A program made the position numbers and the translations under genes. From Bacteroidetes bacterium GWC2_46_850 (lineage in GTDB: Bacteria; Bacteroidota; Bacteroidia; Bacteroidales; Dysgonomonadaceae): 64,000 nucleotides of DNA. The DNA is taken from NCBI GenBank assembly GCA_001768325.1, contig MENQ01000027.1, forward strand, positions 62,001 to 126,000. The letters run 5' to 3'. The notes beneath the pieces were generated by a model. It was not told the DNA's origin and made no database searches. It saw only the letters and a list, made by a program, of their open reading frames with translations. Positions 26,211-26,475 of the stretch are shown here, piece by piece (position 1 is the first letter of the stretch; every line of letters starts with the position of its first letter).

Positions 26211-26286
<76 letters not shown>

Positions 26287-26328
26287 AATAATTTACCTGT
26301 TTCGTACTACAGTTTATTTTCACCCGTT

Positions 26329-26343
26329 ACCTTGCCAAGGTCG
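26329..26343 (-). repeat. Partial tRNA-Gly copy: anticodon-arm fragment
   Basis: accttgccaaggtcg versus accttggcaaggtcg in the intact tRNA, 14 of 15 identical in direct orientation; nearly palindromic, so orientation is ambiguous. Confidence 0.7.
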
Positions 26344-26361
26344 TTTTCATTTCCTTTTTGG

Positions 26362-26397
26362 GGCAAGGTCGTGCTCTATCAACTGAGCTACTTCCGC
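26362..26397 (-). repeat. Partial tRNA-Gly copy: 5' half (acceptor 5' strand, D arm, to anticodon)
   Basis: ggcaaggtcgtgctctatcaactgagctacttccgc matches 26251-26286 at 35 of 36 positions; T-arm and acceptor 3' strand absent. Confidence 0.92.
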
Positions 26398-26410
26398 AGA
26401 AAAAAAGAGC

Positions 26411-26426
26411 GCTACTTCCGTAATAA
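26411..26426 (-). repeat. Partial tRNA-Gly copy: 5' end plus flanking
   Basis: gctacttccgtaataa matches gctacttccgcaataa at 26276-26291 with one mismatch, including 5 nt outside the mature tRNA. Confidence 0.75.
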
Positions 26427-26443
26427 ACCCGGATTTGCGGCTA

Positions 26444-26475
26444 CAAAGATAGCACTTTGTTTTCTAAAATTCAAA
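26444..26475 (-). promoter_or_regulatory. Candidate promoter for the tRNA-Gly transcript
   Basis: Minus strand TTG (26472-26474) - 20 nt - TATCTTTG (26444-26451), matching the Bacteroidetes TTG-N19-21-TAnnTTTG pattern; lies upstream of all partial tRNA copies. Confidence 0.65.

Follow-up and report, generated by a model that had tools for sequence, protein, structure and literature searches.

Bacterial tRNA genes are usually held to be controlled by promoters, gene copy number and decay, and we know of no described leader that competes with a tRNA for the tRNA's own fold. Several known systems nevertheless come close. At E. coli tyrT, 178-bp repeats (rtT RNA) repeat the 3′ end of tRNA-Tyr downstream within the tRNA transcript. 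T-box leaders are RNAs able to pair with a tRNA anticodon, eukaryotic tRNA introns pair with the anticodon, and attenuators and anti-antisense leaders work through mutually exclusive hairpins. Here, we analyzed a stretch of 64,000 nt from Bacteroidetes bacterium GWC2_46_850 (hereafter, the window), in which an intact tRNA-Gly(GCC) gene is preceded by a 70-nt unit consisting of a copy of the tRNA 5′ half, a loop and an element, C, that is antisense to the tRNA anticodon arm.

Like tyrT, this element can form tandem repeats, each containing part of the neighboring tRNA, inside what is likely the tRNA transcript; unlike tyrT, where the 3′ end is repeated downstream, the 5′ half lies upstream, is joined to an anticodon-arm antisense and occurs in many families. 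The leader RNA shares with T-box leaders the potential to pair with an anticodon (here GGC with GCC), but the gene under control would be that of the tRNA, and complementarity extends over ~15 nt of the arm. A T-box covariance model found no match in the window and 12 other loci, and no aminoacyl-tRNA synthetase or amino-acid gene lies downstream, where tRNA-Gly is found. The predicted alternation of hairpins, with a sense segment (A) masking the antisense C until its target is made, recalls attenuators and anti-antisense leaders; those act on a terminator or ribosome site, whereas the target here would be the tRNA fold and the masking segment copies that target. Finally, in one predicted fold, extra RNA follows nt 36 within the anticodon loop and is paired with the anticodon arm, as in tRNA introns, but an intact gene is also present here, and neither group I nor group II intron models matched the window or 12 other loci.

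Over the same window and 12 loci, no Rfam family other than tRNA was found at the gathering threshold, and relaxing it to E ≤ 10 in the window added only weak matches to two unrelated families. The unit itself does not match RF00005; the intact tRNA alone does. Our literature searches, which covered tRNA leaders, copies of tRNA halves and attenuation in tRNA operons, turned up no such element. As far as we have checked, then, the element is unreported, with neither an Rfam family nor a paper, and it has probably been overlooked because annotation programs list only the intact tRNA.

Architecture of the tRNA-Gly(GCC) leader

A first-pass annotation had pointed to partial self-copies upstream of tRNA-Gly(GCC), and we recovered each of them where it had placed them. 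All parts lie on the minus strand and are listed in the order of transcription:

26444–26475 (−): promoter-like site of the Bacteroides type, fitting the consensus, with TTTG (26472–26475), 20 nt and TATCTTTG (26444–26451)
26411–26426 (−): short copy of the beginning of the tRNA (5′ acceptor strand and TAGC), 15/16 identical with flank
26362–26397 (−): copy of the tRNA 5′ half, nt 1–36, whose last nucleotide is the end of the anticodon GCC (sequence comparison)
26362–26369 (−): segment A, the last 8 nt of the half, pairing partner of C in the predicted fold
26344–26361 (−): variable loop of the unit, CCAAAAAGGAAATGAAAA (alignment)
26329–26343 (−): element C, CGACCTTGGCAAGGT, 15 nt, 15/15 complementary to tRNA nt 29–43 (26244–26258)
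26287–26328 (−): unconserved linker
26211–26286 (−): intact tRNA-Gly(GCC) (ARAGORN; RF00005, 71.4 bits)

The 5′-half copy is identical to the tRNA at 36/37 positions, one flanking base counted. Element C had been read as a fragment of the anticodon arm in sense orientation. That copy exists (14/15), because the arm itself is nearly palindromic, but the reading missed the exact 15/15 antisense match, which proves the more important of the two. Across the aligned units, unit size stays close to that of a tRNA (66–76 nt). A short 5′ piece (GCGGAAGTAGC plus ~8 nt) stands ahead of the half in many same-genus loci; the piece at 26411–26426 is thus also shared.

The Bacteroides promoter consensus consists of TTTG at −33 and TAnnTTTG at −7 (PMC7366714). 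In 82/97 arrays, the 150 nt ahead of the first unit contain TAnnTTTG, in 74 of them with TTG at the right distance, compared with 3/97 arrays in which the linker before the tRNA contains it, although the linker is shorter (mean 37 nt). This distribution bears out the earlier observation that the only clear promoter lies ahead of the copies and makes it likely that leader and tRNA are co-transcribed from the upstream promoter. In the window, transcription would start near 26437.

Distribution and specificity of the unit

Same-genus loci were initially found by BLAST of the region, independently of the pattern used for the wider scan. The half, loop and C precede tRNA-Gly(GCC) at two kinds of loci, with tRNA-Gly either alone or followed by tRNA-Leu(TAA). 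Units are single or tandem, with one to eight copies per array, and they are near-identical within arrays; one finished genome carries eight near-identical 118-nt units. Scanning the GTDB species genomes for the pattern returned at least 118 stretches, nearly all from Bacteroidales among the matches listed, and these matches cover at least eight named families of the order: Dysgonomonadaceae, Bacteroidaceae, Tannerellaceae, Paludibacteraceae, Rikenellaceae, Odoribacteraceae, Porphyromonadaceae and Prevotellaceae. Pattern matches outside Bacteroidota (Yersinia, Afifella, Maritimibacter and two others, L154 and L164) have no half-tRNA and were discarded as chance matches.

With a covariance model, whose counts are lower bounds given the strict Infernal filters and the existence of divergent or truncated units, we detected the unit in 27/39 species genomes of the genus, in 26/66 genomes and 5/12 genera of the family, in 8/393 genomes spread evenly over Bacteroidales families, and in 0/147 other genomes drawn across the phylum. 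Some near-complete same-genus genomes (e.g., G008) gave no match with this model. Given this patchiness, the unit is not essential. The loops group by family, as under vertical descent, with 72/96 nearest neighbors belonging to the same family where 23 were expected.

The association with tRNA-Gly is close. Among 143 pattern-matched units in GTDB species genomes, 109 have tRNA-Gly within 900 nt downstream, 27 run to the end of the available sequence, and 7 are followed by masked bases, more units or a tRNA-Gly copy missed by the strict pattern. The downstream gene is tRNA-Gly, with tRNA-Leu next in part of the loci. In the genome of the window, both tRNA-Gly(GCC) loci carry the leader (second locus: L005, L227) and none of the other tRNA genes does (43 tRNA genes listed); the only other long upstream match among the 43 comes from tandem intact tRNA-Asn genes. 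This confinement to tRNA-Gly(GCC), including the second locus, argues against a chance occurrence, and a general trait of tRNA leaders in this genome can likewise be dismissed. At one locus (L077, ~3120), a GCC-type unit precedes a tRNA-Gly read as anticodon TCC, and C no longer fits the anticodon.

Conservation and covariation with the tRNA

Within the genus, mean pairwise identity was 96% for the tRNA, 92% for the half and 92% for C, compared with 76% for the loop (shuffled, 59%), 53% for the linker (shuffled, 49%) and 56–60% for the flanks. Between families, the loop is near random. The order-wide conservation of C is partly by construction because 9 of its 13 positions lay in the search pattern. 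The first-pass annotation had proposed that the copies would be a neutral scar if relatives lacked them or decayed randomly there; most species of the genus have the copies, with half and C conserved. A dead tandem tRNA copy decaying neutrally does not account for the 92% identity of half and C against 53% in the linker. The suggestion that the copies are simply the scar of collapsed tandem tRNA genes also fails as the whole story, since the non-tRNA part is conserved and the unit is common to several families; such a collapse is a possible origin of the unit. The observation that prompted the follow-up is real and not a local scar.

Two free bases of C, facing tRNA nt 42–43, match the own tRNA in 106/113 units: the tRNA stem at 27–28 is of type CA, CG or TA, and C follows it. 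Matched C and tRNA types vary inside several families, and three of the seven exceptions are C-to-T changes that preserve a G-U pair. The half and the tRNA differ at three loci, and C sides with the tRNA each time. Neither in the window nor in its relatives does the loop contain a clear partner for the two bases of C, so that pairing with the tRNA would explain them best; the rival explanation is quasipalindrome correction.

The acceptor strand of the half matches that of its own tRNA across four main types, and halves depart from the tRNA mainly in the D loop (15/113). In five loci (L020, L023, L024, L039 and L049), the D loop of the half reads AGGATNGGTA, which is absent from the adjacent tRNA-Gly, while the acceptor and anticodon strands match. 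Two loci (L034 and L035) have a half without acceptor strand and D arm; A and C are kept there, and C is still predicted to pair with the tRNA. C may therefore be the core of the element.

Two predicted folds and a predicted switch point

Folds were predicted with RNAfold. For the unit alone in the window, A pairs with C at −19.9 kcal/mol (z = −2.6), which is the hairpin between ACCTTGCC and GGCAAGGT that had been described before. In the leader alone, C is predicted to pair with the half in 79/83 loci. The fold of the whole precursor is another matter: a hairpin followed by a normal cloverleaf had been envisaged, but in the predicted minimum the tRNA pairs through its anticodon arm with C and through its 3′ half with the leader half, so that the tRNA is captured by the leader and the hairpin stands for the unit alone. 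This fold lies below that of leader and tRNA folded apart in 83/83 loci, by a mean of 11.5 kcal/mol, a secondary-structure energy that leaves out tRNA tertiary contacts, Mg2+ and modifications, all of which favor the true tRNA. A kinetic balance between the two is therefore the sober reading. The acceptor strand of the leader half is predicted to pair with the tRNA 3′ strand in 80/83 loci. When the transcript was grown in silico, C moved to the tRNA as nt 37–44 appeared in 82/83 loci.

This predicted gain depends on the partner. Compared with −11.5 kcal/mol for the cognate tRNA, the mean was −9.9 kcal/mol with a same-type tRNA and −7.1 kcal/mol with an other-type tRNA. It fell to −5.3 kcal/mol when the half was retained and the rest shuffled, and to a mean of −1.5 kcal/mol for 42 other tRNA leaders of the genome, the most extreme of which belongs to a tRNA-Thr in a tRNA cluster with another tRNA gene just upstream. 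A change at the central base of C loses just 2.3 kcal/mol, owing to the palindromic nature of the arm.

We also considered a terminator. The unit hairpin in the window has no U-run. In two same-genus loci (L015 and L048), the hairpin is followed by 5–6 T, resembling an intrinsic terminator; as such T-runs occur in few loci only, a terminator is not general.

A proposed bistable leader and its alternatives

The explanation that we find best, plausible but just short of probable, is that the unit is a cis-acting bistable leader that modulates the maturation of tRNA-Gly(GCC). A conserved element stands upstream of one gene class and has alternative predicted folds, as expected of a leader. We infer the transcription, the effect on maturation, the purpose and the trigger of the proposed switch. 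The unit would be transcribed together with the tRNA from the upstream promoter. Segment A of the half-tRNA would initially pair with C, so that the unit hairpin is closed and C is masked. Once tRNA nt 37–43 emerge, C could pair instead with the whole tRNA anticodon arm. The freed leader half might then replace the true 5′ half, laying its acceptor strand on the tRNA 3′ acceptor strand and forming its own D arm; the result would be a counterfeit cloverleaf whose anticodon domain holds the true 5′ half as a loop. If RNase P and tertiary folding of the tRNA act before this, a normal tRNA would be made; if they are late, the precursor would be captured and lost. The unit could thereby tune the yield of tRNA-Gly(GCC) as a timer, an attenuator or a dosage control, with unit copy number as a possible dial. 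The earlier idea that a precursor carrying a tRNA-half mimic could affect maturation is supported; the first-pass annotation also suggested that the mimic might act on RNase P or tRNA-modifying enzymes or serve as a GlyRS decoy.

It is also possible, if somewhat doubtful, that the leader belongs to a class of RNA switches not known before. The tRNA gene would come with an imitation of the tRNA 5′ half and with a sequence antisense to the tRNA anticodon arm, a nascent tRNA that fails to mature in time would be captured into the counterfeit cloverleaf, and kinetic competition within the precursor would set the supply, with copy number as the dial. If true, this would be a previously unreported form of tRNA control, directly testable, in common gut, oral and digester bacteria.

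The main rival, unlikely in our view yet serious, is a mutational attractor that has no function. In this account, tRNA-Gly was partly duplicated in tandem and its anticodon arm copied in inverted form; recombination among the direct repeats, together with quasipalindrome (template-switch) correction, would keep the copies similar to the tRNA, and slippage would make the array grow or shrink. C and the tRNA arm form a perfect inverted repeat at a distance of 70 nt, and recombination and correction could match the half and C to the tRNA without selection. The variation from one to eight copies, the near-identity of units inside arrays, the tracking of the tRNA acceptor strand by the half, the patchiness across the order and the tandem intact tRNA-Gly genes with similar spacing in other Bacteroidales all fit this account. 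Against it, a deletion between 36-nt repeats ~110 nt apart is expected to be permanent, yet 27/39 species retain the unit; the loop, which no repeat could correct, stays above random within the genus; the halves agree with the tRNA in the acceptor and anticodon strands but vary in the D loop; and C and A persist in units with a truncated half. Should the repeat be neutral, it would still be a striking, mutationally self-maintaining one, useful for measuring natural template-switch correction.

A role in trans is improbable. Here, a leader fragment containing the half-tRNA and C, freed by RNase P, would act either as a decoy tRNA half or as an antisense RNA and bind a ribonuclease, a tRNA enzyme or tRNA-Gly(GCC) itself. 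The mature tRNA has in its anticodon arm the complement of C (predicted duplex, −28.5 kcal/mol), the near-tRNA-sized unit has a stable predicted fold, and arrays would raise the dose; however, the unit always lies directly in cis to tRNA-Gly, with none seen elsewhere, and in the free leader C is predicted to be masked by the half. We regard as very improbable that the unit is a product of site-specific integration, that is, a cassette or remnant inserting at the tRNA-Gly anticodon loop with the 5′ half restoring the gene. Integrases are known to use anticodon arms as core sites, the half stops exactly at anticodon nt 36, and C is an inverted copy of that core, but only tens of nucleotides separate the last unit from the tRNA, and the nearest half starts 79–118 nt from it at the loci measured, with neither an element nor an integrase in between. 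The clustering of loops by family also speaks against integration, as does the lack of any match in IMG/VR viral contigs, for which we likewise rejected a phage origin.

In other Bacteroidales (L188–L196), two or more nearby intact tRNA-Gly(GCC) genes stand in place of half-tRNA units, possibly the ancestral state; some of these genes are in tight tandem, including three intact ones at 105-nt spacing at one locus (L188).
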